The position numbers and the translations under genes were made by a program. Shown piece by piece: positions 6,170-32,462 of a stretch of DNA of 32,462 nucleotides (positions are counted from its first letter, which is position 1; each line of letters opens with the position of its first letter). The stretch spans positions 1 through 32,462 of IMG/VR virus record IMGVR_UViG_3300014501_000052; one strand, 5' to 3'. This stretch comes from a virus. The notes below the pieces were generated by a model, which was not told the DNA's origin, did not search any database, and worked only from the letters and a program-made list of their open reading frames with translations.

Positions 6170-6176
6170 TGCTGTC

Positions 6177-11420: not shown

Positions 11421-11432
11421 GGGGGCAGTTGC

Positions 11433-11520: not shown

Positions 11521-11521
11521 C

Positions 11522-11818: not shown

Positions 11819-11825
11819 AGTCTTC

Positions 11826-11856: not shown

Positions 11857-11862
11857 TTTCCG

Positions 11863-12504
11863 CTAGTACGCTCCGCCGCTCTGCGGAGCGAGCGGGTTCA
11901 CCATGTCCTTGCCAGGCTCGCCGCCGACGTCCAGCCAGCTCTTGCCGGAGATGCTGGGCAGGTAGCCGGCGATGGTCACCGAGCGGCGGACATATTGCGT
12001 GCCGGCGGGGATGCTTATTGACGCGTAGTTGATGCCCATGGCGGCGATCGCCGTCGCCGTGCCGGCGTTGGTCCAGGTGGAATTGTCGGGGCTCGTCTGG
12101 GCGGTGTGGGTGTACACGTTGTTGAAAACGTAATTCCCGGCCGACGTGCTGGTCGTCGCCGCCGCTGACAGGACGAAGACCGTCGAGCTGGAGACGCTCG
12201 CAATAGTCGCACCTGCCGGGATGCCCGTGCCGGTGACGCTCATGCCCGCTGCCAGGCCAGCCGTGCTGGTGACGGTGACTGACGTGCTGGTGTTGGTGAG
12301 GGTCACGTTGGCGCTGGCGATCGTTACCGTGCCCAGGTTGAGCGACTCGATCAGCGCCCCGACGTAGCCGGAGACCGCCAGGCTGGCGGCGGCGAAGGAT
12401 GCGCCCAGGTCCAGCGAGTCGCTCTGGTAGGTGGCGAGCTGGGGCTGCACGGTGTCGCCTTCGAACATCGAGGCGTGGCCGCGGCGGAAGTGGAATGGCT
12501 TCAC
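11863..12504 (-). CDS. Virion protein with GxGIPAG module
   Basis: A 213-residue protein beginning with GTG at 12504 (V/M-K-P-F-H-F-R-R-G), chosen because GGAG lies 6 bases upstream; the upstream in-frame region is a duplicated spacer. After an N-terminal segment the protein has TSTAGLAAGMSVTGTGIPAGA and SSTVFVLSAAATT, matching the module in the 6878-7657 protein. The C-terminal half (YTHTAQTSPDNSTWTNAG, then SISIPAGTQYVRRSVTIAGY) resembles jelly-roll domains used in virion decoration, and is similar in outline to the protein at 12869-13300. A capsid or tail decoration role is likely but not shown. Confidence 0.5.
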   Translation of the reverse strand: MKPFHFRRGHASMFEGDTVQPQLATYQSDSLDLGASFAAASLAVSGYVGALIESLNLGTVTIASANVTLTNTSTSVTVTSTAGLAAGMSVTGTGIPAGATIASVSSSTVFVLSAAATTSTSAGNYVFNNVYTHTAQTSPDNSTWTNAGTATAIAAMGINYASISIPAGTQYVRRSVTIAGYLPSISGKSWLDVGGEPGKDMVNPLAPQSGGAY

Positions 12505-12547
12505 AGGTTGCTCCTTACGACCCGAGACAGGTTGCTTACGACCCGAG
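12503..12547 (-). repeat. Tandem duplication of a gene 3' end and stop
   Basis: Two tandem copies (24 and 21 bases) of the sequence around the stop of the 12536-12829 gene. The distal copy has 3 extra bases that create the GGAG ribosome-binding site for the next gene. Confidence 0.7.
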
Positions 12548-12829
12548 GCGTCCGACCTCGGCGCTTCCGTCAAGGGCGTTCGATATCTTGCCGGTGTCCC
12601 GGTCGGTGACTTCGTAGCCGATGCGGATGGCGTCTTTGGCGCACTGCTCGCTGTCGGTTTCGGACCGCCCTTCGATGAACTTGCAGCCGCAACGCTCGCC
12701 GCTGAATGTCGGGTGCTTCACGCGGATCTGAAAGCGTTTCTCGCCGGGCCGGCGGGGGATGGGGCCGGCGATGATCTCCGGCCCCCCTTGCCCCCCGTCC
12801 TGCGCGTCTTCTGTCTTTCGCTTTGCCAC
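12536..12829 (-). CDS. Hypothetical protein, 97 residues
   Basis: Starts with GTG at 12829 (M-A-K-R-K-T-E-D-A-Q-D), 8 bases after a GGAG site. The N-terminal 25 residues are charged and Gly/Gln-rich. A compact middle region follows, GEKRFQIRVKHPTFSGERCGC, with two Cys close together and a further Cys in DSEQCAKDAIRIGYEV. Ends GSAEVGRLGS. It lies among small genes after the capsid and could be a head accessory protein, but I do not recognise it. Good codon usage and tight junctions support it as a gene. Confidence 0.5.
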   Translation of the reverse strand: MAKRKTEDAQDGGQGGPEIIAGPIPRRPGEKRFQIRVKHPTFSGERCGCKFIEGRSETDSEQCAKDAIRIGYEVTDRDTGKISNALDGSAEVGRLGS

Positions 12830-12868
12830 TTTGGGTCTCCTTCAATGCAAATAGCCTCGCTGGAAAAC

Positions 12869-13300
12869 TTATCCGAGGCGGACGTTGGGATTGAGGTACG
12901 CCTCGAAGGTGATGCTGGGCGCGGTGCCCGCTACGACGAGCTGCAGCCGCACGTAGCGGCCCTGGATCTGGGCGCGCAAAACGACGGTGCCGGTGGCGGT
13001 CACCGCCAGCGTCCCCTGGGTCGTCCAGGTGGCGTCGTCGGGGCTGTCCTGGAGGTCGAAGGTGTACGTCTCGTTGCTGCTGCCGAGGTTGAGGGCGGTC
13101 GTGCGGATGACGGCCCCCATCGGCATGCCCAGCTCGCCGGGAGCCCGGCCAGAGCCGAGATCCAGGACGGGATAGGTGGTGTTGGCGGTGGAAGTGACCG
13201 TCGAAGTGGACGGCGCCGGCTGGGGCGGAGTGGTCGTGGGCGGCGCCTGGTGCAACGCGAGCTGCACGTCCTGTACGCCGGCCGGTAGTGAGGGGTCCAT
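12869..13300 (-). CDS. Putative capsid decoration or accessory protein
   Basis: A 143-residue protein, MDPSLPAGVQDVQLALHQAPP at its start, with a Pro/Thr/Ser linker at about 18-42 and a beta-sandwich-like domain after it. The segment TYTFDLQDSPDDATWTTQG followed by LRAQIQGRYVRLQLVV is typical of small jelly-roll domains in which a deviation is measured along a ligand-binding face; similar wording is in the 11863-12504 protein. It is the first gene after the major capsid gene, the usual place for a decoration protein. GGAG lies 7 bases before the ATG. Context-based call. Confidence 0.5.
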   Translation of the reverse strand: MDPSLPAGVQDVQLALHQAPPTTTPPQPAPSTSTVTSTANTTYPVLDLGSGRAPGELGMPMGAVIRTTALNLGSSNETYTFDLQDSPDDATWTTQGTLAVTATGTVVLRAQIQGRYVRLQLVVAGTAPSITFEAYLNPNVRLG

Positions 13301-13311
13301 AGGGTGCTCCG

Positions 13312-13363
13312 GTTCAGAGTTATTCGAGGCTCGGATTGTTCAGAGTTATTCGAGGCTCGGATT
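13312..13363 (-). repeat. 26-base perfect tandem duplication at capsid gene end
   Basis: Two perfect 26-base direct copies, 13312-13337 and 13338-13363. The right copy carries the last codons of the capsid gene (N-P-S-L-E-stop); the left copy repeats the same codons and a second TAA in the spacer. Confidence 0.85.
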
Positions 13364-14272
13364 GTTGGGGATGATCCCGGCGACGCGGCAGGCAGCGCGG
13401 GGGTGGAAGATGGCGATGCCGACGTTGGCTTCGATCAGGTCCACGTAGTAGGTGCCCAGCAGCCCGACCTGGACGTGTTCGATCAATTGGCTGCCCATCA
13501 GGCCCTGGACGTATTCGCCGTCCGTGTCGTCGCCCAGCTTGATGACGTACAGGCTGGTCGTCGCCGAGCTGCTGCCCATCACTTCGGTTTCGGTGAGGAT
13601 CGGCTGGTCGTCGCCGTCTTCGTCAAGGATCGCGAAGGGGACGCCGTCATAGCTGGCGGCCTGTCCCTGGATCTCGGCGATGCGCGTGCCGCTGGCGGTG
13701 GCGCGCAGCAGGTCGGTTATGGTGCGCCGGCACGCCTTGTTGCAGACGATCACCTTGCCTTCGTTGTTGCCGCCGATCACGCGATCGAGGGCGGCATCCA
13801 AAATGTCCAGGGTGAGGGCGCCGCCGTTGGCGCCGCAGGTGATGTACTGCCGGCCGGTCAACCGGGCGTTCAATCCATAGAACTGGCGGGGATCGTTGGC
13901 GGGGTCGCCCTGGATGCAGTATTTGTCGAAGAACAGCGACGACCGTTTGACCTTGCCGGCGATCGAGTTGGCCCGGGCGATGTCGCCCTGCTTGTTGACG
14001 ATCTGCCGGTCGGTCTGGACCTTGCCGCCGAAGATGGCGAGTTGTTCGACCAGGGGGTTGATCACCCCGGCGTCCGGGGCATAGTCTTCGTTGAGCCCGC
14101 GGAAGGCGATGCCGCCGGTGGTCTGCTGGCGGTTGTAGGTGTAGGAGAAGCCGTCCACCATGATCCATTTGAGCCGGGGCATCAACTGGGACTTGTTGGT
14201 GATGATCTGGACCAGCCCGGCGCGCTTCTGGTCGGTGGTCTGGGAGATGAAATCTACTAGCGAGATAGCCAT
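13346..14272 (-). CDS. Major capsid protein
   Basis: A 308-residue protein, MAISLVDFISQTTDQKRAGLVQIITNKSQLM at its start. The features fit the HK97-fold capsid group without a long delta domain: an N-arm, 'L-P-R-L-K-W' type turn, GGIAFRGLNEDYAPDAG, then an A-domain-like segment (KVIVCNKACRRTITDLLRATA) followed by VPFAILDEDGDDQPILTE and a C-terminal strand EANVGIAIFHPRAACRVAGI. It follows a separate scaffold gene and the portal/MuF genes, the normal order. AAGGAAG lies before the ATG at 14272. It ends in a duplicated 26-base repeat. Assigned with high confidence from order and pattern. Confidence 0.8.
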   Translation of the reverse strand: MAISLVDFISQTTDQKRAGLVQIITNKSQLMPRLKWIMVDGFSYTYNRQQTTGGIAFRGLNEDYAPDAGVINPLVEQLAIFGGKVQTDRQIVNKQGDIARANSIAGKVKRSSLFFDKYCIQGDPANDPRQFYGLNARLTGRQYITCGANGGALTLDILDAALDRVIGGNNEGKVIVCNKACRRTITDLLRATASGTRIAEIQGQAASYDGVPFAILDEDGDDQPILTETEVMGSSSATTSLYVIKLGDDTDGEYVQGLMGSQLIEHVQVGLLGTYYVDLIEANVGIAIFHPRAACRVAGIIPNNPSLE

Positions 14273-14335
14273 GGTCTTCCTTTACCTTGCTAAGGCCAGC
14301 ACGCCGCCGGACGTGCCGCCCTTATTGTGAGCCTC

Positions 14336-14962
14336 CTACACGGCCGCGATGGTCCCTTGCGCCGTCTGAGCCGTGGGGCCTACGGTCGTCTTGTCGGCCG
14401 CCAAACCGGCGGCGATCTTTTGAACGGGGGAACGCTTGTCGTCGGGCCGGGCCACCTGCGCCGACGGCGCCACCGCACCGGCGGCGGCGGACGCTCCGCC
14501 AGCCACTTTCGGCGCCTTCACGCCCAGCTTGTCGAGCAAACCTTTGTAGCGGCCGCGGATGGCGTGCTCTTGCTCGGCGAATTTCGCCGGGTCGGTGCCC
14601 AGGGCGCCCTGGTACTCTTCAGGCAGATCAGCCAGCTTGCTGGCGATGTAGCTCTGCCGGGCCTGCTGGATCTGCGCCTGCTGGGTGAAGCCCTGGAGCT
14701 TCTCGCCTACCAGCTTGTCGACGTCGGCCAGGGTGAGGGGTTTGGCTTCGCCCGGGGCGGCGGCCGCCGTAGCCGGAGCCGGCGTCTGAAGCTTGCCGAT
14801 CTGTTCGGCCAGCGGAGTGAGCGCCTGAGTGAACGCGGGGGCGATAGACTTGGCGATCGCTGCGCCAAGCTTGTCATAGTCGATCGCCGGGGCTTGGTCG
14901 GTCATCTGACTGTCCTTTCCGGCGTCATTCGATCGCCGTTTGAATGGGTTCCAAAGAGTCAT
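14336..14962 (-). CDS. Capsid scaffold protein
   Basis: A 208-residue protein starting at the ATG at 14962, which shares its A with the upstream TGA (TGATG). A second possible start is the Met of MTDQAPAIDYDKLG, 21 residues on. The sequence is Ala/Gln/Lys-rich and helical, with likely coiled coil at about 35-65 and 85-115 (KLVGEKLQGFTQQAQIQQAR), a Pro/Ala stretch near 60-75 and a disordered tail. This composition and the position immediately before the major capsid gene are typical of phage scaffolding proteins. No protease Ser-His motif is visible, so it is a scaffold without a fused protease. Confidence 0.7.
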   Translation of the reverse strand: MTLWNPFKRRSNDAGKDSQMTDQAPAIDYDKLGAAIAKSIAPAFTQALTPLAEQIGKLQTPAPATAAAAPGEAKPLTLADVDKLVGEKLQGFTQQAQIQQARQSYIASKLADLPEEYQGALGTDPAKFAEQEHAIRGRYKGLLDKLGVKAPKVAGGASAAAGAVAPSAQVARPDDKRSPVQKIAAGLAADKTTVGPTAQTAQGTIAAV

Positions 14963-15219
14963 CAAAACACTGTCCCCGGCGGATCCGCCGGCTTGGGTGC
15001 CATCGTCGCTCTGCCGCCCAGGGCGGCGGCCGTGCCGTGGAGCTGCACGGCTCCGGGTTGGCCAAGGCCGGGCGAGCCGGCATCCGGCTCGGCGGCGAAG
15101 ATCTGGTTGAACTCATCCTCCAGCAGCTTGTCCGGCGGCGAGAGGGACCAGGTGAAATCGTCGGCGAGGGTGGCCACCATCGCGACGCCGTGCCAATCGA
15201 ACTGGATCGTTCCGACCAT
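14962..15219 (-). CDS. Small hypothetical protein between MuF and scaffold
   Basis: An 85-residue frame starting MVGTIQFDWHGVAMVATLADDF at 15219; its A overlaps the last base of the MuF stop codon (TAATG) and its TGA overlaps the scaffold ATG. The N-terminal 40 residues look like a small globular unit (FTWSLSPPDKLLEDEFNQIF); the rest is Gly/Ala/Pro-rich. Coupled junctions on both sides support it. It could be a minor head protein; nothing more can be said. Confidence 0.5.
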   Translation of the reverse strand: MVGTIQFDWHGVAMVATLADDFTWSLSPPDKLLEDEFNQIFAAEPDAGSPGLGQPGAVQLHGTAAALGGRATMAPKPADPPGTVF

Positions 15220-17243
15220 TACGCCACCTCTCCGTGCAGGATGCCCACGATCAGCTTCAGATACTCCGGGTCCTTGGCGAACCGCATGGGGTTCTGGTAC
15301 AGCGTCTCGATGCCGACACTGAGCACTTCGGTGTACATCAGGCCGGCGGCATCTGAGCTGTATTTCTTGCCGATGTAGTGAGCCAGGGGATAGCCGACCG
15401 TCTTGGCGAACTCGTCTTCCCGCCCCATCTCGCTCGGGTCGAAGTTGCACTGCGGATACTTGGCCTTCAGGCTCACAAACGCCTCTTTGCCGACGCGTTC
15501 CTCCAGGAACAAGTTGACCGCCTTGCGGGCGCCGGGGAGCGTATCTTCCAGCTCGTGCCCCAGCTCGTGTGCGAGCGTGTGCTCAGGCGTGTACTCGGTG
15601 GCGAACACGCTGCCGTGGCTGGCACCGGGGCGGCCGATGCCCGCGTTCGTGTTCCAGTGAGCACGGCCGCTGGTGGCCACTTCGAAGGTGACCTTCCTGG
15701 CGGGAACCCCGGAAACGGCAGCAGTCCGCTCGCTGACCCATTTGACGGCGGTGTCGATCTTCCCCTGGGCGACGGACAGCTTGGCGTCTACCTTGCCCTG
15801 GGGAATAGTGTTCGTCGGCCCCTGGACCTTCAGGGCTTCATGGGCCTCGGCGATGCGGGCGGCGTGGCGGCCTTCGATGGCAACCCTCTCTGTGCTGAGC
15901 GCGAAGCTCTCCTTCACCAGGGTGTGACGCTTTTTGATGTCTGATTCATTGGCGTACTCCGTCCTGATGGCTTCGATGCGCTTTTGGATCTGCCCGTAGC
16001 GAGCGTTGTCGGGCTCGGCAGACTTGGCGACCTGCGCGATGCGATCGGCAATGCCGGCCGCCTTCGTGTCGGTGCGCGCGAAGAACGTCTTCAGGTCGGC
16101 GGCCGTCTTGACCGCTGTCGGCCCGGTGGCGACGACCGGGGCCGGTGCGACCGGGGCTGGGGCGGGCACGGGCTTTGGCGCAGGGAGGGCCTGGCCATAC
16201 ATGGCCGCCGCGGTGTCCTTGTACCGCTTGGCGGCGTCGGACCCCATGCCCACGCTCTTGAACAGAGCTTGAGCCTGCGTGGCCGTCTTGCCCGCCAGCG
16301 CCAGCGTGTCCGGCGTCGGCGCCGCATCCTTCAACTGCGTCGGCGTAGCCAGGGCCGCGACGAAGGGCCGCGTGCTCTTTGAGCAGTTGGGATGGAACGG
16401 CGGGACGGGATAGCCCGCATTACCTGGGAGCGACGACAGCGGCGGGTAGTGCGGGTCCTTGCCGGAGAGGCTGAACACTTGCCCGAGAAACGCGGTGCAG
16501 AAGGTGTTTGAGACCCGGCCGACGATGCTGACCAGGTCGATGCCCACCTGCTGCAGCCGCTCGTGACGGGCATAGGTCGTCGCCTCGCGCGTCTTCGTGC
16601 GGACGACCAGGCGGGCATACTTGCCCACGTCGAACTCCATCGGGCCGCCCCGCGTCTGTAGGACGATCTTGTCCCCGTGCACGGCTCGCAGGGCTTCGCG
16701 CAGCTCCCGGATGACCGCCGTGGGCTGCCCCTCGATCAGTCCGCCGGCCAGGATCTTGTTGATGTCCTGTTCGCTCAGCTTGAGCTGCGCGGTCTTGCGG
16801 AGGAGCGTCTTGGCACCGTTGCCCATCGCGGTCTCAGCCTTGCCCAGATCCGCGGCGGCGTCGCGGGCGAAGACGGCGACGGCGCCGCGATCGACCAGGG
16901 CGAAAGATCCGTGGAGGGGATTGTCAGCAGGGGCTGATGCTGGCGGCCGAACCCCGGCGGCAACGGCCTGCGAGTCGGCCCTTGCGATTCCGTCCTCGAC
17001 GGCCTTGGCGAACGTGGTCGGCGAGCCGAGCCAGTTGACGGTTTGCTTCTTGAGCGTGCGCAGCTCGTCGTCCACCTGGCTAATCAACTGCGCCGCCCGG
17101 GCCATCCGCCACGCCTGGCTCTGGGTGGCGCCAGCCGGCTTGAGAATGAACCGTGCCAGCTTGCGTTGGGCGGCCAGGTAGTAATCCGCGAGGATGTCCA
17201 CCGTGCCCTGAGGGATGCCGCTGGTTGAGAGGTTCGGGGTCAT
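15219..17243 (-). CDS. SPP1 gp7/MuF head protein with C-terminal HEXXH domain
   Basis: A 674-residue protein whose ATG overlaps the portal stop by 4 bases. Residues about 205-296 are a MuF head-morphogenesis domain: VVRTKTREATTYARHERLQQ, then the Cys-bearing NTFCTAFLGQVF segment and the signature PPFHPNC at 281-287. After an Ala/Pro linker (350-380) and a helical region (380-500) there is a second domain with HELGH at 559-563, the HEXXH zinc-protease motif, and YTEVLSVG near 637-644 as a possible third ligand. MuF proteins sit near the portal and can be injected. A MuF-metallopeptidase fusion suggests an enzyme delivered to the host or active in the head. Much longer than Mu gp30. Confidence 0.8.
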   Translation of the reverse strand: MTPNLSTSGIPQGTVDILADYYLAAQRKLARFILKPAGATQSQAWRMARAAQLISQVDDELRTLKKQTVNWLGSPTTFAKAVEDGIARADSQAVAAGVRPPASAPADNPLHGSFALVDRGAVAVFARDAAADLGKAETAMGNGAKTLLRKTAQLKLSEQDINKILAGGLIEGQPTAVIRELREALRAVHGDKIVLQTRGGPMEFDVGKYARLVVRTKTREATTYARHERLQQVGIDLVSIVGRVSNTFCTAFLGQVFSLSGKDPHYPPLSSLPGNAGYPVPPFHPNCSKSTRPFVAALATPTQLKDAAPTPDTLALAGKTATQAQALFKSVGMGSDAAKRYKDTAAAMYGQALPAPKPVPAPAPVAPAPVVATGPTAVKTAADLKTFFARTDTKAAGIADRIAQVAKSAEPDNARYGQIQKRIEAIRTEYANESDIKKRHTLVKESFALSTERVAIEGRHAARIAEAHEALKVQGPTNTIPQGKVDAKLSVAQGKIDTAVKWVSERTAAVSGVPARKVTFEVATSGRAHWNTNAGIGRPGASHGSVFATEYTPEHTLAHELGHELEDTLPGARKAVNLFLEERVGKEAFVSLKAKYPQCNFDPSEMGREDEFAKTVGYPLAHYIGKKYSSDAAGLMYTEVLSVGIETLYQNPMRFAKDPEYLKLIVGILHGEVA

Positions 17244-18919
17244 GCCGCCCTCCCTGCCGCCGATGCAGCCGAGCCGGCGGCGACGCCGCTATTCGTGTAG
17301 CTATTGGAGGCGCCGGCGACGCTGTCGGGGTTAGCCAGCTCCGCCGCCCGCTGGTCAGCGCCCGGAAGGTCCGCGTCTTCCACGCCCCCACCCGCCACGC
17401 TCCCTTCCCCACTCTCCGCCGTCCCGCCGCCATCGCCCATGAACACGGTCGGCTGCTGCTGGGCGCGCTCGGCTTCGATGCGGGCGAGTTCCTTCGCCAC
17501 CGTCGCGGGATCGCCGTACAGCTTTTCCAGACCGCCTTCGACCGACATGAGCTGGCAGGACCGGAGCGTGGAGAGCGTTTGGGCCTGGTCGAGTTCATCG
17601 ACCGGGATGCCGTCGCGCGGCTCGACGCCCAGGGGATTATCGCTCACGTCATAGCGCGTGCCGGGCAGCGTCTGTTCAAGGGCCTGGGCAACGCCGATCA
17701 TCCGGCGGATGCCTTGCTTCCAGTAGGCGGCCTTGCGGCGTGCCTTGGTCAAACTGTTGGTGGCGCGCAGGCGGAGGGTGGCGTAGCTGACCGGGGCCGC
17801 CCCTTCGTCCATCCCCAGCAGGACGCCGCTGGTCTCCGCCCTGACCAGCAGTTGCGCCAGGGCGAATTTGCGGTCCTCGATCGCGGAGGCAAGCTGCGCC
17901 TCCCAGGTGATGTATTTGGGGATTTTCTCCGGGTCGGAGAAGGGGAATGCCTCGAAGTCGCTTCGGATGTTCCCGTTCTCATCGAACGCCTCTTCGGGGA
18001 AGACCATCTTGGGGTCGGAGTGCTTCAGCAGCACGCGGGCAATCTGCGTGTTCTTGGCGTTGACCATGTCCTGCAAGTCGATCAACCCGTCATAGTCCGA
18101 AACGGGGCGGCCGCGCACCAGCAGGTTGGGGACCCAGATAATCGTGTTCTGGTCGATGCCGGTTTGGGTGATAGGCTCAAGAGGTCCGCCGGGCGTCCCG
18201 TCTGGCTGGGGAGCCACGGGCCACTGGTCGATGGCGAGCTCGGTGAGGGTCTTGTTGTCATCGTTGAGCTGGTAGCAATGCCGCTCGATCTGCCCGGCCG
18301 TGTAAATCTCTTTGAGGATCAGCCAGATCGGCTTGTCGGCCGGCTGCATCGAGCCCCCCTGGCCGCCGACGTTGGTGACCGAGTAGCGATCGTAGCGGCG
18401 GTATTGCAGGTCGGGTCCGAGGTCGCCCGCTGGAAAAACTTCGTCGGTGGGGATTTGGCGGAGGTAGACCTCGCCGTCCATGACGACCGCTTCAACGCAC
18501 GCCTCGGCTTCGTAGCTGGCATCGACGGCGCAGTTGTAGAGCAGGGTGTACAGGCTACACCGCTCGCTCAGATCGTTCAGGGCGGCTTGCTGTTCGGGAA
18601 CGTCGCTGCGCAGGATCGGCTCATCGCCGAAGAGCAAGTCGGCAGACTTCAGACTGATCAGCCCCAGCACGTTGTAGGCCAGGTACATCTTGGTCGTCTG
18701 GGTATTGACGCGGACCTCGGGGAACTGGAACTGGGTTCGGCCCTCATCGACGTAATACTCCCGGTGCTTCCCGTCGAAGAGCATGCGGGCCATGCGGATC
18801 CGCTCCAGGCGGGATTGCTGGGCGGGAGTGAGCCATGCGCCATAGTCCGACCCGGGCGCGTTCCAGGCGCTGCCGGTCGAGTAGACCCAGATGGCGGGGA
18901 TGGCTTTTGCTGAATCCAT
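17240..18919 (-). CDS. Portal protein (SPP1 gp6-like)
   Basis: A 559-residue protein from the ATG at 18919 (MDSAKAIPAIWVYSTG), preferred over an upstream in-frame ATG that would overlap the previous gene. The N-terminal region has WLTPAQQSRLERIRMARML, then the wing/stem-like stretch LISLKSADLLFGDEPIL, a feature of SPP1 gp6-type portals. A central region (LVSYDGLIDLQDMVN-type crown segment, here RPVSDYDGLIDLQDMVNA) and a C-terminal Gly/Ala/Ser-rich tail of about 60 residues complete it. Twelve copies would form the DNA channel. It is preceded by DUF3486 with only 7 bases between; no large terminase gene intervenes. Confidence 0.8.
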   Translation of the reverse strand: MDSAKAIPAIWVYSTGSAWNAPGSDYGAWLTPAQQSRLERIRMARMLFDGKHREYYVDEGRTQFQFPEVRVNTQTTKMYLAYNVLGLISLKSADLLFGDEPILRSDVPEQQAALNDLSERCSLYTLLYNCAVDASYEAEACVEAVVMDGEVYLRQIPTDEVFPAGDLGPDLQYRRYDRYSVTNVGGQGGSMQPADKPIWLILKEIYTAGQIERHCYQLNDDNKTLTELAIDQWPVAPQPDGTPGGPLEPITQTGIDQNTIIWVPNLLVRGRPVSDYDGLIDLQDMVNAKNTQIARVLLKHSDPKMVFPEEAFDENGNIRSDFEAFPFSDPEKIPKYITWEAQLASAIEDRKFALAQLLVRAETSGVLLGMDEGAAPVSYATLRLRATNSLTKARRKAAYWKQGIRRMIGVAQALEQTLPGTRYDVSDNPLGVEPRDGIPVDELDQAQTLSTLRSCQLMSVEGGLEKLYGDPATVAKELARIEAERAQQQPTVFMGDGGGTAESGEGSVAGGGVEDADLPGADQRAAELANPDSVAGASNSYTNSGVAAGSAASAAGRAA

Positions 18920-18926
18920 TCTTCGC

Positions 18927-19442
18927 TCAAACTCCGAACACAGCCTTGCGGACATCCGCAATGGTCTGATCGTCGATCGCCTGTCCTTTACCCTTCAGCG
19001 ACCGCATCTCCCGCTCCAGCTTCGCCGCCAGCAATTTCACCAAACCCTCTTTGCTTCTGACCAGGTTGCGGAGAGCCATGGTCATTTTCAGCACGTCGCC
19101 GGTGTCGATGTCGCCGTCTTCCTGGAGCTGCGCCGATTGCTCGAAAACGACCTGCGTCAGCTGCATCGCGGCGGCGTCGGCTACGTCTTCCAACTGGCCG
19201 CCCTGGATCGCCGTCTTGATCACCTGGGCCAGCTCGCCGCTCCGGGAAAACCGCTCCTGCATCAGCAGCGACTTGAACTTGCGATACCAGTTCCCGCTGG
19301 CGGTGCGACCCACGTTGAAGCCCCGCGACAAGAGCCAGTCGTGGATCTCGTCATAGCTGCGCCCCGGCTCGCGGGCGAACGTCTCCAGCTCGTCAAGCTC
19401 GGCCCGGTTGAGCAGCTCGAGAACTTTGAATTGGCTGGGCAT
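18927..19442 (-). CDS. DUF3486 / Mu gp27-like protein
   Basis: A 171-residue helical protein starting MPSQFKVLELLNRAELDELE. The N-terminal part has SYDEIHDWLLSRGFNVGRTASGNWYRKFKSL, the helix-turn-helix-like pattern of DUF3486 (Mu gp27), in which a 'G-x-x-v-s-x-s-x-x-x-r-y' segment contacts DNA. The C-terminal two-thirds is helical (VFEQSAQLQEDGDIDTGDVL and LVKLLAAKLEREM). Family members lie before the large terminase in Mu-like phages and are thought to serve as small-terminase-like proteins. Here the next gene is the portal. Family call is good. Confidence 0.75.
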   Translation of the reverse strand: MPSQFKVLELLNRAELDELETFAREPGRSYDEIHDWLLSRGFNVGRTASGNWYRKFKSLLMQERFSRSGELAQVIKTAIQGGQLEDVADAAAMQLTQVVFEQSAQLQEDGDIDTGDVLKMTMALRNLVRSKEGLVKLLAAKLEREMRSLKGKGQAIDDQTIADVRKAVFGV

Positions 19443-19443
19443 C

Positions 19444-19482
19444 GCAGTTACTAGCTACTAGCCGCTAGTCGCTAGTAGCTGC
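19444..19482. repeat. Heptad hairpin element (CTAG units), short form
   Basis: Inverted repeat of 18-base arms (19444-19461 and 19465-19482), matching at 16 of 18, with a 3-base loop. Each arm consists of CTAGNNN heptamers. It fills the spacer before the DUF3486 gene. Related in design to 11433-11520. Confidence 0.75.
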
Positions 19483-19486
19483 CTCT

Positions 19487-19861
19487 TCAAAGTTCCTCGT
19501 TGCTCACCCGCGGGTCCCACACGTCCGGGTCGGGATCGGCCTGCCCGCGATAGAGCAGGCATCCCTTGTCCTCGATCCGCACGAACACGTTGTCCGGCCT
19601 CACGCTCTCGCCGTGCATCCGCCGCAGGCGAGTGACTGTCACCATGGACTTCCGCTCCAGGTCGGCCAGCAAATCCATCGCGTGCTGGTCGTTCTCGATG
19701 CGCTGGTCCAACACGACCGACTGGTTGACCTGGCGGACGATCTTCGTGCCCGACAGGCCCTGCATGGGGGCGGCGCCGCGAGAGAGGTACAGGGCCTCCA
19801 GGATCGACCAGCGGAGCATGCGGTCGGTTTCATTGCGCGCCTTGCTGAAGTCGATGGGCAT
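19487..19861 (-). CDS. Winged-helix protein of Mu-like terminase neighbourhood
   Basis: A 124-residue protein. Residues 10-80 have the layout of a winged helix: DRMLRWSILEALYLSRGAAP (helix 1), LSGTKIVRQVNQ (helix 2), AMDLLADLERKSMVTVTRLR (recognition helix plus wing). A similar short winged-helix protein (VpaChn25_0724-type) is usual just before DUF3486 in Mu-like phages. The C-terminus is hydrophilic (GCLLYRGQADPDPDVWDP). DNA binding is likely; the exact target is unknown. The match to the named family is from memory of the pattern and context. Confidence 0.55.
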   Translation of the reverse strand: MPIDFSKARNETDRMLRWSILEALYLSRGAAPMQGLSGTKIVRQVNQSVVLDQRIENDQHAMDLLADLERKSMVTVTRLRRMHGESVRPDNVFVRIEDKGCLLYRGQADPDPDVWDPRVSNEEL

Positions 19862-22151: not shown

Positions 22152-22769
22152 TCATGGGATCTCTCGCGTCGCGAACACGACGCGGCCGATTCGCTCTACG
22201 TCTGAGCGACTGACAAACGAGCGGTCGAACGCCGGGTTCTGGGGTATGAGTTCCAACTCCTCTCCCCGCTCGATTACTCGGCGCAGCGTACCGGGCGATC
22301 CGCGCAGCTTCAGCCAATGCACTCGCCCTGACTCGACCTGGCCGCCGGCCCGAAAGGCCACAAGGTCTCCCGGCTCGAACCGAGGCGACATCGAGGCATC
22401 GCCCACAGTGGCGCCGAGATGCTCATGCCCAGCGTCTGCGGAGCGCGGCAGGACCAGCAGGGCATCGGTGTCGTCGGCCATTCTGCATCTCTCTCCGCCC
22501 ACCACGTCCACGGCGTAGTTCGTGCCTCCCTCCTCCTCGATCTTGCCCTCATAGGCGTCCTTGACCCGCTCGGGCGACCTCCCGAGCCCCCTGGCTAGCA
22601 TCGCAAGCGTCCCTTGATTGCGGCGTCGGCCGCTCGCGGCGTCCTCGATCTCCTGAATCGTCGATGTGGACAGGCCGCTCCGGCGAGCCAACTCTTCCTG
22701 GCTAATGCGCAGGACGCTTTCCCTCACAAACCTGACCCATCTCGCAAAATCTCCGGCGGAATCCGTCAT
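22152..22769 (-). CDS. CI-type repressor: HTH plus S24-like domain
   Basis: A 205-residue protein. Residues 21-47 form a helix-turn-helix (ISQEELARRSGLSTSTIQEI). The C-terminal domain has GDASMSPRFEPGDLV at 123-137, the S24/LexA pattern with the catalytic Ser126, and ELELIPQNPAFDRSFV. The catalytic Lys expected in the 'x-K-R-[VL]' strand is replaced: the sequence there is TLRRV (Arg163). Self-cleavage may therefore be lost or slow, and induction may use another route. It is transcribed leftward, away from the early operon, and the 120 bases upstream carry operator-like dyads. The repressor function is inferred by family and position. Confidence 0.75.
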   Translation of the reverse strand: MTDSAGDFARWVRFVRESVLRISQEELARRSGLSTSTIQEIEDAASGRRRNQGTLAMLARGLGRSPERVKDAYEGKIEEEGGTNYAVDVVGGERCRMADDTDALLVLPRSADAGHEHLGATVGDASMSPRFEPGDLVAFRAGGQVESGRVHWLKLRGSPGTLRRVIERGEELELIPQNPAFDRSFVSRSDVERIGRVVFATREIP

Positions 22770-23265: not shown

Positions 23266-23321
23266 CGAAAAGTCAGAGAGCGGCGGTGGCCATGATGATC
23301 AAGGAGGGGGTTGACCTATGA
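23154..23321 (+). CDS. ParB-like nuclease domain fragment
   Basis: A 55-residue product from the ATG at 23154, MRYLACKAAGVSPHYAETWV at the start, ending ELTKSQRAAVAMMIKEGVDL. The 'R-Y-x-A-C-x-x-A-G-V' and 'L-T-x-S-Q-R-A-A-V-A' segments are the second half of a ParB/Srx-type domain; the upstream in-frame codons for R-G-R continue the 'G-R-x-R-Y' motif. The first half of the domain is missing in this frame. It ends with an ATGA overlap into the ParB-methyltransferase gene, which carries a related segment (MTVSQKAAAAVEVA). It is likely a truncated or frame-disrupted ParB-like gene. Confidence 0.5.
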   Translation: MRYLACKAAGVSPHYAETWVAGDGSVVAALNQVRRELTKSQRAAVAMMIKEGVDL

Positions 23322-24655
23322 AGAGACTGTTGCCCCACCCGTTGTCCGAGCTGCTGCCGCCGCTTGGTCCCGAACAGTTCGCAGCACTAAAGGATGCGAT
23401 CGCCCACAACAAGGGCCTGCTGAAGCCGGTTGTCTTGTTTGATGGGAAGATCCTGGACGGGCGCCACCGCGCCATCGCCTGCTACGAGCTCGGACTTCCG
23501 GTGAGAACGATTGAGTTCGATCCGGCGTGGGGATCTCCGGCGTTTTTCGTATACCAAAACTCGTTGAACCGTGAGATGACGGTTTCACAGAAAGCGGCGG
23601 CGGCCGTTGAAGTGGCGGACGCACTGGCCGCTGAGGCAGAATCCCGCTCCCGGTCCAACCTGAAAAAAGGGTCCCGACCCGGCAATATTTCCGTGCCGCA
23701 GGGCGAGTCCCGTGATCTGGCCGGCTCACTCTGGCGCGTCTCAGGGAGGTACGTTTCAGAGGCTAAGGCAATCCGGGAACACGATGCAAAGCTTTACTCG
23801 GCCGTCCGACTTGGCGCTGTGACGATTGCGCAAGCAAAGAGAGAGATTCACCGCAACAAGAAGCGCAAGGCCTTGGCCAAGCCGGCGGCGGCCCCATCGG
23901 CGCAGGCCTGGGAGACCTGGGACATCATCGCCGGCGACTGCCTGAAGGTGATGCCCACGATGCCCCGCCGCCACGCCCGTTTGATCTTCGCCGACCCTCC
24001 CTACAACCAGTCGATCGACTATGGAGACGGCGAGAAGGCCGACGCTCGCTCTGAGTCGGAGTATCTGGACGAATGCGCCCAATGGATGGCGGAATGTTTC
24101 GAGCTGCTCGCCCCGGATGGCACGATGTGCGTGCTGATCTCTGATGAGTATGCGGCGCACTACGCGATCATGCTCGGCGAGATCGGTTTTCACCGGCGTT
24201 CCTGGATCAAGTGGTACGAGAGCTTCGGCGTCAACTGCAACAACAACTTCAATCGTTGCAGCCGGCACGTTTTCTACTGCGTGAAGGACGAACAGAACTT
24301 CGTCTTCAACCCCGACGCCTTCAACCGCCAATCGGACCGGCAAGTCAAATACGGCGATAAGCGCGCCAACCCCAAGGGAAAGATCTGGGACAACGTCTGG
24401 GGCATCAACCCGCCCATTCCGAGGCTGGTCGATAACGCTCCCGAGCGCATGCCCGATTTTCGCACGCAGCTCCCCCTGGCCCTGTTGAAGCCAATTGTCG
24501 AGGGGTTCAGCGATCCGGGCGACGTGGTCCTTGACCCCTTTTCCGGGAGCGGCACGACGGTGGCCGCCGCGAAGCTGCTGGGCCGCAAAGGCATCGGCAT
24601 TGAGAAGAACGCGGCTCGGGCGGAGCAATCGAGGCAGAGGCTCGCCAGTGTTTAG
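23318..24655 (+). CDS. ParB-domain DNA methyltransferase fusion
   Basis: A 445-residue protein. Residues 1-110 are a ParB-like domain: LKPVVLFDGKILDGRHRAIA at about 35-54 and a helical part with NREMTVSQKAAAA. Residues 200-445 are an amino-methyltransferase of the beta arrangement: DPPY at 226-229 (motif IV) comes before DPFSGSGTT near 400-410 (motif I, SAM binding). It would methylate adenine N6 or cytosine N4. Phages use such fusions to protect DNA from host restriction or regulate genes. The start at 23318 overlaps the preceding stop (ATGA). No cognate nuclease is nearby, so it is an orphan enzyme. Confidence 0.85.
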   Translation: MKRLLPHPLSELLPPLGPEQFAALKDAIAHNKGLLKPVVLFDGKILDGRHRAIACYELGLPVRTIEFDPAWGSPAFFVYQNSLNREMTVSQKAAAAVEVADALAAEAESRSRSNLKKGSRPGNISVPQGESRDLAGSLWRVSGRYVSEAKAIREHDAKLYSAVRLGAVTIAQAKREIHRNKKRKALAKPAAAPSAQAWETWDIIAGDCLKVMPTMPRRHARLIFADPPYNQSIDYGDGEKADARSESEYLDECAQWMAECFELLAPDGTMCVLISDEYAAHYAIMLGEIGFHRRSWIKWYESFGVNCNNNFNRCSRHVFYCVKDEQNFVFNPDAFNRQSDRQVKYGDKRANPKGKIWDNVWGINPPIPRLVDNAPERMPDFRTQLPLALLKPIVEGFSDPGDVVLDPFSGSGTTVAAAKLLGRKGIGIEKNAARAEQSRQRLASV

Positions 24656-26379: not shown

Positions 26380-26808
26380 ATGGACTCGCCCCTCTACAAC
26401 ATGACGCTGACCGAGCTGCGCATGTACAAGGCGATCGGCGGGATTTTACCCACGGTCCTTGAGCGGCGGCTGCAGCGCGGCGAGCCAGACCGGGTGGCCT
26501 GGTACCAGCCGGCCCGGCTGGCTTTGCCGCCGCTGGTGACCCGGCCCTTGGAAGACGTGCGGGCGGAGCTGGCCGGCCTGGAGCGGCACGCCATGGCCGC
26601 CAAGCTGGGGCAGGCGGCCGTGGAGCGGCCTGTCCCCCAGATTCTGCGCCCCATCGAGTCGATCGACCCCTGGGGCCTGCGCTACGCCACGCTTCTAACT
26701 GGGGCACGCCGCCTCCGCGTGGACGTTGAGGAATTGCTGGAGGCGTGCCGCGACGGATCGACCCGTTGCTACGGACGGCGCTGGAGGTTTTTACGGAGCG
26801 CCGCATGA
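26380..26808 (+). CDS. Hypothetical protein upstream of transposase
   Basis: A 142-residue protein from the ATG at 26380 (MDSPLYNMTLTELRMYKAIG); in-frame codons upstream overlap the previous gene. Its TGA overlaps the transposase ATG (ATGA), implying coupled translation. The N-terminal region (LTELRMYKAIGGILPTVLER) is helical, a Pro-rich middle follows, and the end (LRVDVEELLEACRDGSTRCY) resembles a helix-turn-helix tail. It could be an accessory to transposition or a regulator. Unrecognised. Confidence 0.5.
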   Translation: MDSPLYNMTLTELRMYKAIGGILPTVLERRLQRGEPDRVAWYQPARLALPPLVTRPLEDVRAELAGLERHAMAAKLGQAAVERPVPQILRPIESIDPWGLRYATLLTGARRLRVDVEELLEACRDGSTRCYGRRWRFLRSAA

Positions 26809-28856
26809 CCACCCCTGCCCTACTCCCCACAACCCCACTCGCCACCCTGCCGGCCCCTGCCAACGGTTGGATCGACCTGCCGACAGCCGCCAAGCGGTCT
26901 GGCAAATCAATAGGCCACCTGCGCCGCTGGTGTGGCTCGGCAACCTATGCACCCGGGGGAGTCACCCTCCAGAGCAAAGGGCTGGCCAAACTTGTAACGG
27001 TGCCTGGCGCAAAGCCGGAATGGATATTGAAGGAGGAGGCCGATCCATCCTTCGCCGCCGTTAAATTCGCCGATCAGCTTGGGACCAACCTGCGCGGGCT
27101 AACCGACCGCCAGCGGCAGACAGCCCAATTGCGCCGGCTGATCCTGGACAAGTGGAGCGAGGCAGTCAAAGCGGGGTTCACCCTGGGCTTCGACAAAGAC
27201 AAGGTCACCGGGCGCTTCGTGGAACAGCTCTTCCTGGGACAGATCGCCGGCATCCCGAAGAGCATCGAGGTGTGCCGCCGGACGCTGTATCGGTGGGAGG
27301 GGCTGTGGGACAGCGGCGGCCTGGCGGCGCTGGCGGACGGACGGGGCGGCGGCAAGGTAGAGAAAGGGGCAGACCCATTCATTGAGGCGGTCAAGCACTA
27401 TTACCTGTCCAAGCGGCAACTGCCGTTGACTACCTGCCACAAGATGGCCTGCCTGGACGCCGCGGAGAAAGGATGGGAGGTCCCATCGCGGCGGACCTGC
27501 CAGCGGGCCATCGACGGCTTGCCCAAAGGGGTCGTCATCAAACAGAGATTCGGAGAGGAGGCGTATACGAACGAAGCACAGTCGTATATCGAGCGGGACT
27601 ATTCCGGGCTGCGCAGCAACCAGATCTGGGTAGGCGACCATCACCAATTCGACGTGATCTGCCGGCACGGGGATAAGCTGATTCGCCCCTGGCTGACCGC
27701 CTGGATGGATATGCGGTCCAGGAAGATCGTGGGGCGGCAGGTGTTCGCTCATGACCCCAACTCGGACACCATCCTGTCGGCCCTGCGCATGGGGTGCCTG
27801 GATGCTGGGGTCCCTGAGACGGTGATGATCGACAACGGCAAGGATTACGACTCCTACGCGCTCAACGGGCGAACGAAGAAAGACCGCTGGCTGATCCGCA
27901 AGGGCAAGATCCAGCTTGACCCGGTGTACGCCGGGGGCGTCTTCGCCGCCCTGGGCATCGAGGCGAAATTCGTGCTCCCCTACCACGGGCAGAGCAAGCC
28001 GATCGAGCGGTTCTTCGGAACGGTCGAACAGCAGACGCCGGTGTGGGCCACCTACTGCGGGCGCAGCACGGCCCACAAGCCGGAAGACCTGGAGTTGCAG
28101 CTTGATCGCGGCAACGCTCCGCAGTTGACGGATTTTATCGAGTGGTTTTCGGGGCACGGGGGGTGGATCGAGACGTATCACAACACGGTCCACACGGGCG
28201 ACGGGATGGACGGCAAGACGCCCAACCAGGTGTTTGCCGAGAATTTGTCCTGCAAGCGGACGACGACGCCAGAGCTACTGGACGTGCTCCTGCTGAAGCC
28301 GACGCCGCCGCTGAAGGTGGGACAGAACGGGGTGACCTGGCAGGGCCTGCGCTATGGCCAGCATTGCCCGGAGTTGATTGAGATGCTGGGGCGGGAGGTT
28401 TTGCTCCGGGTGGACGATCGGGACCTCAGCAGGGTCCAGGTGTGGACCAAAGAGGGGCGGTTCGTCTGTGTCGCCCCGGCCAATGAGCGAGTGCCGGTCA
28501 ATGCGACCAGTCAGGAGCTGCGCAAGGCGATCGCGGCGACTAAGTCGGATAGGAAGCTCATGAAGGACTTCGTGGAAGCCGGGCCGCGCATGGCCGACGA
28601 CCTCCCCGACAAGATTTTGCGCGCGCGGGCCCGCGTGGCGGCCGCCGTCAAGCCTGGGGAGACGCTGGATCTGGATACAGGCGAGGTCTCATTGAAACCG
28701 GTTCGATCGCCCCTGGAAGACCAGTTGCCGGCCCTTCAAAAGGCGTTGGAAGCCCGGGGGAGTATGCGTATGGCCGTCGGCGCCGAGAATGTAAGCGAAG
28801 ACCCCATGGCCGACTTGAAGGCGGCCCTGCAACGCCGCGAAGAGGCAGAGGAGTAG
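26805..28856 (+). CDS. Mu-type DDE transposase (MuA family)
   Basis: A 683-residue protein starting at 26805 (MTTPALLPTTPLATLP). An N-terminal DNA-binding region follows (GWIDLPTAAKRSGKSIGHLR, a HTH-like start). The catalytic core has the RNase-H-fold triad: D at about 278 in IWVGDHHQFDV, D at 343 in VMIDNGKDY, and E at 401 in KPIERFFGTVEQ. The spacing of 65 and 58 matches MuA (269, 336, 392). The C-terminal beta-barrel and tail (DRDLSRVQVWTKEGRFV) match the Mu C-terminal domain. It joins phage ends to target DNA and drives replicative transposition. The next gene is the AAA+ partner. All key residues are intact. Confident. Confidence 0.95.
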   Translation: MTTPALLPTTPLATLPAPANGWIDLPTAAKRSGKSIGHLRRWCGSATYAPGGVTLQSKGLAKLVTVPGAKPEWILKEEADPSFAAVKFADQLGTNLRGLTDRQRQTAQLRRLILDKWSEAVKAGFTLGFDKDKVTGRFVEQLFLGQIAGIPKSIEVCRRTLYRWEGLWDSGGLAALADGRGGGKVEKGADPFIEAVKHYYLSKRQLPLTTCHKMACLDAAEKGWEVPSRRTCQRAIDGLPKGVVIKQRFGEEAYTNEAQSYIERDYSGLRSNQIWVGDHHQFDVICRHGDKLIRPWLTAWMDMRSRKIVGRQVFAHDPNSDTILSALRMGCLDAGVPETVMIDNGKDYDSYALNGRTKKDRWLIRKGKIQLDPVYAGGVFAALGIEAKFVLPYHGQSKPIERFFGTVEQQTPVWATYCGRSTAHKPEDLELQLDRGNAPQLTDFIEWFSGHGGWIETYHNTVHTGDGMDGKTPNQVFAENLSCKRTTTPELLDVLLLKPTPPLKVGQNGVTWQGLRYGQHCPELIEMLGREVLLRVDDRDLSRVQVWTKEGRFVCVAPANERVPVNATSQELRKAIAATKSDRKLMKDFVEAGPRMADDLPDKILRARARVAAAVKPGETLDLDTGEVSLKPVRSPLEDQLPALQKALEARGSMRMAVGAENVSEDPMADLKAALQRREEAEE

Positions 28857-28860: not shown

Positions 28861-30024
28861 GTGTCACCAGACGTCACCAATCCGACCGCAATGGACGCCC
28901 TGCTGGACGCAGGGAGAATACGTGGAGCATCACGGATGATCGCCGAAGGAACCTCTGCCGAGTCCGTTACCAAGGAAACCGCCCAGAAGGTGATCGACCA
29001 GGTCACCAGCTACAAAAAGCAGAGCCGGCTGAGCCTGGGGGAGATCGGCAAGGCCATCGGCTATGGCGGCCCCACCATCAGCCAGGTCCTTTCCTGGAAG
29101 TACCCGGGTGACTGGCGGGCGATCGTGCTGGACCTGGACCGCTGGCTGGAAGACCAGGCCAAGCGCGACGCCGCCCCTAAGGACGGCGCCTTCGTCTGGA
29201 CGGCGGTGGCTCAGGAGATCAAAAGCATCGCCGATGCCGCGATCACCCTGCGCACCATCGGCCTGGTCTACGGGCCGACAACCAGCGGCATCGGCAAGAC
29301 CATGGCCCTGGAGGCGATCGCGGCGGAGAAGCCGGGATCGATTCTGATCACCGTGGAGCGGGTGGCGGCGACGACCACCGGCGTCTTGAAGAGCATCGCC
29401 AATGGGCTGGGGATCGGCTACTCCAACTCGACCGACTACATGTTCGAGCGGATCAAGAAGGAGCTGTACAAGACGCCCCGGCTGCTGCTGGTAGACCAGA
29501 TTCACACGCTCCGCGGTGCGCGGGGCGACAAGCCGCTCTATGTGCTGACCGAGCTGCACGACGCCACCAAGGCCCCGCAGTTGTGGTGTGGCACGTCCGA
29601 CATCGTCGCCTACCTGTCCAGGGGCGAGGCCAAGGGCAATGAACCGTTAGCACAGATCCGCCGCCGCATCGGGATAAGCCGGGATCTCATGGAGCGCACG
29701 CGCGGCAGGGGCGGGCGGTCGGACGGCGAGCCGCTCTTCACCATCGAAGAGATCCGCCATGTATTTGGCCGCAACAAGATGAGGCTGGCGCCGGATGCCG
29801 CGCAGTACCTCTACGGCCTGGCCAACGTGCCCAACCAGGGCGCCCTGGGCACCTGCCGCAACGTCGTGTTGATGGCCATCCTCATTAACGAGAGCCGGGC
29901 GGAAGTGCTCACCGCCGCGATGCTGCGGAGCGCCCACCGGACGCTCATCAACGGGCCGGCGTACGCGATGCTGGAAGAACGGATGAAAACACAATCGCCA
30001 CAGCCAGTGGCAAAGGCAGGATGA
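28861..30024 (+). CDS. MuB-type AAA+ transposition activator
   Basis: A 387-residue protein from GTG at 28861 (GAGGAG 8 bases before), 4 bases after the transposase. Residues 55-100 are an N-terminal HTH as in MuB (LSLGEIGKAIGYGGPTISQV, then KYPGDWRAIVLD). The AAA+ core has Walker A at 138-147 (GPTTSGIGKT), Walker B at 208-213 (LLLVDQ) and a sensor-1 segment LWCGTSD near 241-247. Walker B reads D-Q rather than the usual D-E, so ATP hydrolysis may be impaired or regulated. MuB-like proteins choose target DNA and stimulate the transposase. Assigned by motifs and by place next to the transposase. Confidence 0.85.
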   Translation: MSPDVTNPTAMDALLDAGRIRGASRMIAEGTSAESVTKETAQKVIDQVTSYKKQSRLSLGEIGKAIGYGGPTISQVLSWKYPGDWRAIVLDLDRWLEDQAKRDAAPKDGAFVWTAVAQEIKSIADAAITLRTIGLVYGPTTSGIGKTMALEAIAAEKPGSILITVERVAATTTGVLKSIANGLGIGYSNSTDYMFERIKKELYKTPRLLLVDQIHTLRGARGDKPLYVLTELHDATKAPQLWCGTSDIVAYLSRGEAKGNEPLAQIRRRIGISRDLMERTRGRGGRSDGEPLFTIEEIRHVFGRNKMRLAPDAAQYLYGLANVPNQGALGTCRNVVLMAILINESRAEVLTAAMLRSAHRTLINGPAYAMLEERMKTQSPQPVAKAG

Positions 30025-30650: not shown

Positions 30651-30889
30651 GCCCAGACACATCCGGATGGGCGCACGTGGCCCCCGCACAGGCAGCGCAC
30701 TTTTTCCAGCGAGGCAAGAACCGCTGCCTGTGCAGGCGCTGGTGTTGGGAGGCGGCGTTGTCCTTCGGAAGTCGCTCTCCGGCTCAGATTACGTCAACGT
30801 GTCGAGATTGCGAGGCAGCCATACCCGTTCCCTCACGCGGTACTCCGGGTGAGGGTTTAAGGACCAAATGCCCACCCCAGGCCAACTGA
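30647..30889 (+). CDS. Small Cys-rich early protein
   Basis: An 80-residue protein coupled to the preceding gene by ATGA. It has C-L-C-R-R-W-C near residues 27-33 and C-R-D-C near 52-55, a possible zinc site, followed by a Pro-rich tail. The GemA-like gene starts 22 bases before its stop. Short, with unusual composition in the second half; the 3' end might be read-through, but the Cys arrangement argues for a real zinc-binding protein. Confidence 0.4.
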   Translation: MSPDTSGWAHVAPAQAAHFFQRGKNRCLCRRWCWEAALSFGSRSPAQITSTCRDCEAAIPVPSRGTPGEGLRTKCPPQAN

Positions 30890-31467
30890 AAACCATCCAC
30901 GCCGGCGCCCGCCGGGTCGGTCTGACCGACGCCGCGTACCGGGTCCTGCTGCGCAACGTCGGGGGCGTGGAGAGCAGCAAGGAGTTAGATAATCCCGGCG
31001 TCGAAGACGTCATGGCCGTGTTGGAGGACCTGGGCTACGCGGGCCACCCGGGCGGCGAGCATTACTGGCGGGACAAGGTCCGCCTGAGAGGCAGTGAGTG
31101 CGGGGCGCGGATGGCCCGCAAGATCCGTCAGTTGGCGGACGGGTGCCGGTACCCGCTGGAGTCGCTGGTGGAGCGCTTCAGCGACGGCAGGACGGCGGTA
31201 GTCGAAAAACTCCACCCGCGCGAGGGGTGGAAGCTGATCGAGGGCTTGAAAGCCATCGGGCAAAGGGAAGAGGCCGGCAAACGGATACCGGCGGCAACGG
31301 ATGCGCCGGGGCAGGACGCCCCGGAGGCCGCCACGGACGGCGGCTCCCTTTTTTCTCTGGCCGACTCGCACAACTCTACTCGCCGAGACATTGGCGGGGC
31401 TGTTGTGGCCAGTTACGGCGAATGGTCCTGGCCGCGGGAGGCTGGACCGGATGACGTCCCCTTCTAA
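30868..31467 (+). CDS. gemA: GemA-like protein (Mu gp16 family, DUF1018)
   Basis: A 199-residue protein starting MPTPGQLKTIHAGARRVGLT, followed by DAAYRVLLRNVGGVESSKEL: the standard GemA opening, 'I-h-x-a-x-x-x-l-g-l-x-d-x-x-Y-R-x-l-L'. The middle (YWRDKVRLRGSECGARMARK) also fits the family. In Mu, GemA (gp16) modulates host gene expression and DNA topology. The C-terminal 60 residues are disordered and Ala/Gly/Ser-rich. The start has an AAGGA site and overlaps the upstream gene. In Mu a middle-operon activator (Mor) follows GemA; here I see zinc-ribbon and hypothetical genes instead. Confidence 0.75.
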   Translation: MPTPGQLKTIHAGARRVGLTDAAYRVLLRNVGGVESSKELDNPGVEDVMAVLEDLGYAGHPGGEHYWRDKVRLRGSECGARMARKIRQLADGCRYPLESLVERFSDGRTAVVEKLHPREGWKLIEGLKAIGQREEAGKRIPAATDAPGQDAPEAATDGGSLFSLADSHNSTRRDIGGAVVASYGEWSWPREAGPDDVPF

Positions 31468-31479
31468 ATGGAGCGAGCG

Positions 31480-31752
31480 ATGACGCAGAGGCAATCAACA
31501 AAGCCAGCCGTGCCAGGCGAAGAGATCACAGACAAGGTCCTGGTCTGGAGCCTGCGATCGAACCTATGTCCGGCCTGCAAGGGACTCAAGCGCGCTCATA
31601 ACACGCTCTGCCCGCCTTGCTACCGCTCGCTCCCCTACGGCTTGCGTAATGCCCTCTACGACCGGCTTGGCCAGGGGTATCGCGAGGCCATCCAGGCGGC
31701 GCTTGCTCACCTTAAAAAGAGCGTGTTTTACGCCACGGAAGCAAGACCCTAA
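31480..31752 (+). CDS. Small zinc-ribbon protein after GemA
   Basis: A 90-residue protein from the ATG at 31480 (GGAG 7 bases upstream; an in-frame ATG at 31468 is less likely). C-P-A-C and C-P-P-C are separated by about 11 residues, forming a compact zinc ribbon, followed by YRSLPYGLRNALYDRLGQGY and a helical C-terminus (REAIQAALAHLKKSVFYATE). Similar small 'C-P-x-C' proteins with this layout occur in phage early regions. A nucleic-acid or protein adaptor function is likely; not further identified. Confidence 0.55.
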   Translation: MTQRQSTKPAVPGEEITDKVLVWSLRSNLCPACKGLKRAHNTLCPPCYRSLPYGLRNALYDRLGQGYREAIQAALAHLKKSVFYATEARP

Positions 31753-31768: not shown

Positions 31769-32083
31769 ATGCCGACGATTACCCTCCATCTTGGCCAGGC
31801 AGTGCCGTGGCGCGCCGCCCCGGCCGGCATCGCCCAGATCTCCGAGCTGCGCCGCAAGCGCGTGGAGATCTGCTACCTCCAGCTCTGCCGCAAAGGGCCG
31901 CGGATCCGGCGCGTCGTGCTCCCCGTCTCGGCGATCGACCGGCTGATCCGCGACTTCCCCCTGCTTTTCCCCAACGACAACCTTTACCGCCGGGGAATCG
32001 TTCCCAGGCAAAAGACCTATGTTCTCCCCCCCCCCCCTGTTCAGGGCGGGGGCATGGCAAAAACCCTTTTTATCGAGGAATGA
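31769..32083 (+). CDS. Hypothetical protein with C12 tract near 3' end
   Basis: A 104-residue protein from the ATG at 31769, MPTITLHLGQAVPWRAAPAG at the start. Helix-strand body (AQISELRRKRVEICYLQLCR, then LPVSAIDRLIRDFPLLFPND), basic overall. A run of 12 C at 32026-32037 encodes four Pro near the C-terminus (VLPPPPVQGGG), after which the frame ends at 32083, 3 bases before the next gene. A one-base change in the run would alter the last 16 residues and could extend the frame. Function unknown. Confidence 0.45.
   Translation: MPTITLHLGQAVPWRAAPAGIAQISELRRKRVEICYLQLCRKGPRIRRVVLPVSAIDRLIRDFPLLFPNDNLYRRGIVPRQKTYVLPPPPVQGGGMAKTLFIEE
32026..32037 (+). repeat. Homopolymer of 12 C inside a gene
   Basis: Twelve consecutive C. 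Another frame stays open through it to 32100, so slippage in either direction would give an alternative C-terminus. It may also be a sequencing-error hotspot. Confidence 0.75.
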
Positions 32084-32086: not shown

Positions 32087-32462
32087 ATGCGAAATCGTAA
32101 GAACCGTTCGTTGTGCGAGGCGTTGGAGTCTCGCACCCTGTACAACGCCACCATCTACCCGACCGACGCGTCGAGCGGGTCTGCCCAGACCCAGCGGTCC
32201 GAGATCAAAGAGCTGGTCATCGTGCTGGGCACCGCCGACAGCGGGTTCGACAGCGCCGACATCACCATTGCCGTGGCCAACGGCGACGGGTCCGGCGCTA
32301 ATGACGGCTCGGCGAACACAGACATCTCCGGCACTGTGCTGGGGACGCCGACCACCAGCGACGATGTCACCTGGCTCGTGCCCATTGTCGCCTCCACCAG
32401 CTACACCACGTCGGCCGGCAGCTTGGACAACGGCATCTATGACACGGCCGTTACCAGCAGCG
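32087..32462 (+). CDS. Exported planctomycete-type protein, 3' end outside window
   Basis: From the ATG at 32087 (GAGG 9 bases upstream, 3 bases after the preceding stop) the first 125 residues are visible: MRNRKNRSLCEALESRTLYN and on. The basic start followed by C-E-x-L-E-x-R-x-L is the N-terminal signature of many secreted planctomycete proteins. Further on, QRSEIKELVIVLGTADSGFD and SLDNGIYDTAVTSS match the 'q-R-S-x-[IV]-x-x-L-x-V-x-[FL]' and 's-L-x-x-G-x-Y-x-x-x-v' strands common in those proteins. No stop is reached. Tight spacing suggests it is transcribed with the phage early operon (a moron), but it could also be the host gene flanking the prophage end. Confidence 0.6.
   Translation, partial: MRNRKNRSLCEALESRTLYNATIYPTDASSGSAQTQRSEIKELVIVLGTADSGFDSADITIAVANGDGSGANDGSANTDISGTVLGTPTTSDDVTWLVPIVASTSYTTSAGSLDNGIYDTAVTSS

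Follow-up and report, generated by a model that had tools for sequence, protein, structure and literature searches.

A probable accessory gene for a planctomycete-type exported protein behind the early genes of a Mu-like phage

The window analysed here is a whole IMG/VR record of exactly 32,462 bases, both ends of which are cut inside a gene, and its gene content identifies it as DNA of a Mu-like transposable phage. The last gene in it, which starts at 32087, is probably an accessory (cargo) gene of this phage, lying in the variable stretch with which the early lytic operon ends and encoding an exported surface protein. A preliminary description had placed a planctomycete-type gene for an exported protein directly behind early phage genes. 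This arrangement is confirmed by the open reading frame, the spacing of 3 bases, the GAGGA sequence and the LESRTL motif, and the host-type character of the protein is borne out by its homology to exported proteins of the hosts. Whether the phage carries the gene or lies next to a host gene had been left as two possibilities; the extent of the early operon in a sister prophage (genome G436), the 3-bp spacing and the lack of detectable end sites favour the first and disfavour the second.

The assignment to the Mu-like transposable phages rests on a MuA-type transposase, a MuB-type ATPase and GemA; the genes for the first two lie side by side, with the GemA-like gene downstream of the pair (Table 1). 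Structural genes run leftward on the minus strand and early genes rightward on the plus strand. The best relatives of the transposase (46%, 44% and 44% identical) all belong to one planctomycete order, and a general genome scan gave at most 40% identity. The same order holds the domain family found in the 32087 protein, a coincidence that argues for a gene carried by the phage. At the left edge of the window, positions 1-273 of the minus strand hold a phage gene that is cut by the contig start, contains D/G-rich repeats (GTGYDGGD) and adjoins the structural gene 311-1690. The idea that this edge is host DNA was dropped, as the DNA of the sister prophage continues for about 3.4 kb past the counterpart of 311-1690. 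A circular contig, with the 32087 gene resuming at position 1, was also rejected, the open plus-strand ORF there being in another frame.

Table 1. Features of the window bearing on the gene at 32087 and on the identity of the phage.
Feature	Positions	Strand	Remarks
Structural genes, collinear with sister prophage	311..19861	-	e.g. 64% identity for 13346-14272
Likely repressor (HTH plus S24-like), at divergence point	22152..22769	-	sequence-based assignment, independent of family searches
ParB-like protein joined to DNA methylase	23318..24655	+	from sequence; sister prophage counterpart 46% identical
MuA-type transposase	26745..28856	+	phrog_310, 2.7e-97; Mu-transpos_C
MuB-type transposition ATPase	28861..30024	+	phrog_296, 7.5e-35
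GemA-like early gene	30868..31467	+	PF06252, E 1.7e-9
Small zinc-ribbon-like early gene	31468..31752	+	counterpart in G436 sister prophage
Preceding gene, 104 aa	31769..32083	+	relatives in planctomycete mobile-element contigs L080, L081
Tract of 12 C within gene 31769-32083	32026..32037	+	sole C/G run of at least 9 in window
GAGGA, likely ribosome-binding site, within end of preceding phage gene	32075..32079	+	
Start of exported planctomycete-type protein gene	32087..32462	+	125 codons, cut by contig end
LESRTL, LE.R-type N-terminal motif	32123..32140	+	residues 13-18
Domain homologous to that preceding C-terminal dockerin in host exported proteins	32186..32452	+	residues 34-122

The plus-strand ORF 32087-32462 opens with an ATG and is still open where the contig stops. 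It begins 3 bases past the TGA (32081-32083) of gene 31769-32083, and this spacing and the ribosome-binding site resemble those of other early genes, which argues that the phage carries it. The preceding gene recurs in other planctomycete mobile-element contigs, and this points the same way. Residues 13-16 of the predicted protein (32123-32134) are L-E-S-R, followed by T-L; of the window ORFs with at least 60 aa, only two have a motif of the form [LM]E.R.[LFM] close to their N terminus, the second of them antisense. The motif, LESRTLYNA, is a degenerate one of the LE.R type, degenerate after LESRTL, which counts against the phage-cargo reading, and the protein matched none of the curated LE.R-type models of NCBIfam and Pfam. 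About 15 residues separate the motif from the domain, and the cargo part that host proteins have between signal and domain is absent. An AlphaFold model of the visible 125 aa had a pLDDT of 36, too low to be of use. On the basis of 125 codons only, GC3 is 0.87, against 0.79 for early and 0.86 for late genes, and codon usage, which on so few codons does not discriminate, is slightly nearer to that of late phage genes.

An HMM of host paralogues only gives residues 34-122 a score of 62.6 bits, and since the best of 2000 shuffles reached 12.5 bits, the match is not due to chance. The host copies came from a tblastn search in relatives of a genome holding the upstream phage gene; nine strong matches were obtained, all of them in the genomes G505 and G515. 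Both genomes belong to one planctomycete order, and the family is multi-copy in each. The window domain is 38-45% identical to the host copies, and 21 columns are invariant in all nine aligned domain sequences. In the hosts, the domain is ~90 residues long and is found in long exported proteins, some 85 residues ahead of their C terminus. These proteins begin with an LE.R or ME.R motif, and in three of the four host relatives scanned with Pfam the C-terminal end is a type I dockerin (PF00404). The domain is present in 8 of 26 genomes of the order and in 2 of 392 genomes of an even phylum-wide sample, one of these being G515; weak phylum-level matches at two further loci (L073 and L074) were judged spurious. 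An LE.R/ME.R N terminus and a homologous domain are thus common to the 32087 protein and the LE.R-type dockerin proteins of this order. However, the latter are 590-1330 aa long and carry long cargo between signal and domain, whereas the window protein joins the signal directly to the domain, an architecture unseen among the host copies found. A dockerin may follow the domain beyond the contig end.

Single-protein scans of viral contigs with the 32087 protein and with the 31769-32083 protein gave no confirmed relatives, a domain profile run against the viral contigs retrieved none, and the domain was likewise missing from the phage and plasmid records searched. Among LE.R DNA patterns, a search of low power, one pattern found nothing in viral contigs and another only two chance matches. 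A cargo gene that is rare would be expected to lack counterparts of the domain in other viral records, yet a host gene would give the same result, and together with the lack of the gene in sister prophages it counts against a gene carried by the phage.

The closest guide to the DNA beyond the window is an intact 37-kb Mu-like sister prophage in G436 (contig C1, ~1584960-1622205), which is collinear with the window and 31-64% identical to it in most genes, structural and early. It is flanked by tRNA-Ser and a sulfatase gene, and near both of its ends are inverted sites of the transposase type (AGTTTAGA, ACTTTAGACG and GCGCGCACTT). The counterpart of gene 31468-31752 has its stop at 1618161, and the early operon runs ~4 kb beyond it, which argues for the phage-carried reading; the window ends ~710 bases beyond the same landmark. 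The operon tail consists of six accessory ORFs, followed by ~155 bp of non-coding end with the inverted sites. After the counterpart of 31468-31752 the sister prophage has no LE.R gene but other accessory genes instead, among them a wHTH-like ORF and DUF5131, GNAT-like and formyltransferase-like genes. Near DUF5131 in this prophage (locus L146), positions 7339-8439 encode an ABC/GNAT-like protein that may be of a DNA-modification kind, and 8440-9048 the formyltransferase-like protein. The accessory genes after GemA differ among G436 and two related loci, L031 and L042, which carry others, one a methylase, and this variability also favours a phage-carried gene. The 32087 gene itself is absent from every sister prophage read, the same place in G436, L031 and L042 being without it. 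Given the operon tail of G436 and the two other loci, the gene would lie in a zone for variable early cargo, with the phage end ~3 kb further on; this expectation is an analogy with one closely collinear intact prophage, not a reading of DNA beyond 32462.

Transposase and ATPase genes were also noted at two further loci. At ~5.25 Mb of the same G436 contig (L147), a Mu-type transposase gene again lies paired with that of its ATPase, with host genes on either side and an extra transposase-like fragment; no phage surrounds the pair, which is apparently a short element or transposon and not a full prophage. In a Planctomycetota MAG (L015, 3423-5482), behind a transposase and an ATPase there is a single unassigned gene, perhaps a structural one, before host isc-type genes begin; this is probably a prophage remnant.

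The competing possibility that 32087 is a host gene at a phage junction predicts a phage end within the final few dozen bases of gene 31769-32083, the host gene having its own ribosome-binding site. We consider this improbable. The family is host-type, with members in host genomes but, beyond the window, none in the viral records searched, and the conserved part of the preceding protein stops near 32040, so that its last 43 bases could be foreign. Repeated 22-mers near 32087, however, were not above those in shuffles, and there are no copies of the G436 inverted sites in the window. In controls, this 22-mer test was positive for the right ends of Mu and KS10, borderline for the left end of BalMu and missed the left end of KS10; it is a weak test, which missed one of the four known ends and also two ends that were presumed. 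The phage end looked for between 32083 and 32087 thus did not show itself in a weak test, and with the Mu and KS10 right ends positive, the lack of repeated end sites argues that the phage carries the gene. Such a junction would also need a coding phage end, whereas the sister prophage ends in non-coding DNA, as do Mu and KS10 (115-204 bp at the ends read, against 3 bp before 32087), and a chance insertion within ~46 bases of a start codon. Moreover, the host copies found are all in ORFs of at least 331 aa in which the domain lies towards the C-terminal end, an arrangement that 32087 does not share.

The contig stops 376 bases into the gene with no phage gene visible beyond, which counts against the phage-carried reading. 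A further rival is an assembly chimera, in which a piece of host DNA was joined to a phage contig, or a defective prophage that has become fused with a host gene. The contig is metagenomic, a 12-C homopolymer lies just upstream and a multi-copy host family could break assemblies, but the join would by chance have to yield a stop, 3 bases, a start and a correctly placed ribosome-binding site, and we regard such an origin as very unlikely. It is unlikely, too, that the gene is phage-borne but its product not exported, the gene then being what decay or repurposing has left of a host gene, without surface function. The degenerate LE.R motif, the missing cargo domain and the lack of a curated model match would fit this; frame, start and motif are nevertheless intact across 125 codons, and the invariant domain columns are retained. 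On balance, we infer that the gene lies inside the phage.

For a gene carried by the phage, the following course may be proposed. The protein would derive from a host exported-protein family, its LE.R-type N terminus having been fused to the pre-dockerin domain with loss of the cargo. It would be translated early in infection, its gene being the last one visible in the early transcription unit, and then exported to the cell surface, where its effect would most plausibly be superinfection exclusion or the occupation of the host's surface-anchoring sites. Gene 10 (ORF10) of B3-like Pseudomonas phages is an early-operon gene for which superinfection exclusion was shown experimentally (PMC9936078); it and the 32087 gene are both accessory genes in the early lytic operon of a transposable phage, a likeness claimed for position only. 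With this precedent, hindrance of superinfection is plausible, and surface masking by the 32087 protein is plausible as well.

The earlier suggestion of a moron holds in part. Like the morons of transposable phages, 32087 is a single accessory gene known from one phage only and absent from the same place in relatives (PMC4378225). As a rule, morons come with a promoter and a terminator of their own, and some are expressed from the prophage (PMC4378225), whereas the 32087 gene follows its neighbour after 3 bp, a search for sigma-70-like promoters found none for it, and no terminator is visible. It is therefore not a textbook moron and is better described as an accessory early gene. Its product may act in receptor masking or lysogenic conversion, but the position of the gene in the early lytic operon with no promoter-like site of its own fits poorly with expression from a silent prophage.

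The 12-C tract lies ~50 bases upstream of 32087, and only one register terminates gene 31769-32083 at 3 bases ahead of the start codon. In the L080 relative, the corresponding codons hold a tract of 11 C (856-866), and a +1 shift there leads to a stop directly before the next ATG. These tracts possibly reflect slippage or length variation, or are merely CCC proline codons. It is a highly speculative idea, with a slim chance of being right, that a host surface module reduced to signal and anchor, without cargo, is displayed by the phage early in infection and that slippage at the 12 C makes the coupled translation phase-variable.

Should 32087 prove to be a neighbouring host gene, it would be an ordinary matter. 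The envelope of planctomycetes is unusual, and their LE.R/dockerin surface system is poorly understood. If the gene is carried by the phage, this system would be a target in the conflict between phage and host, and the protein would offer a small natural construct, a signal plus an anchor module, for testing export and attachment.
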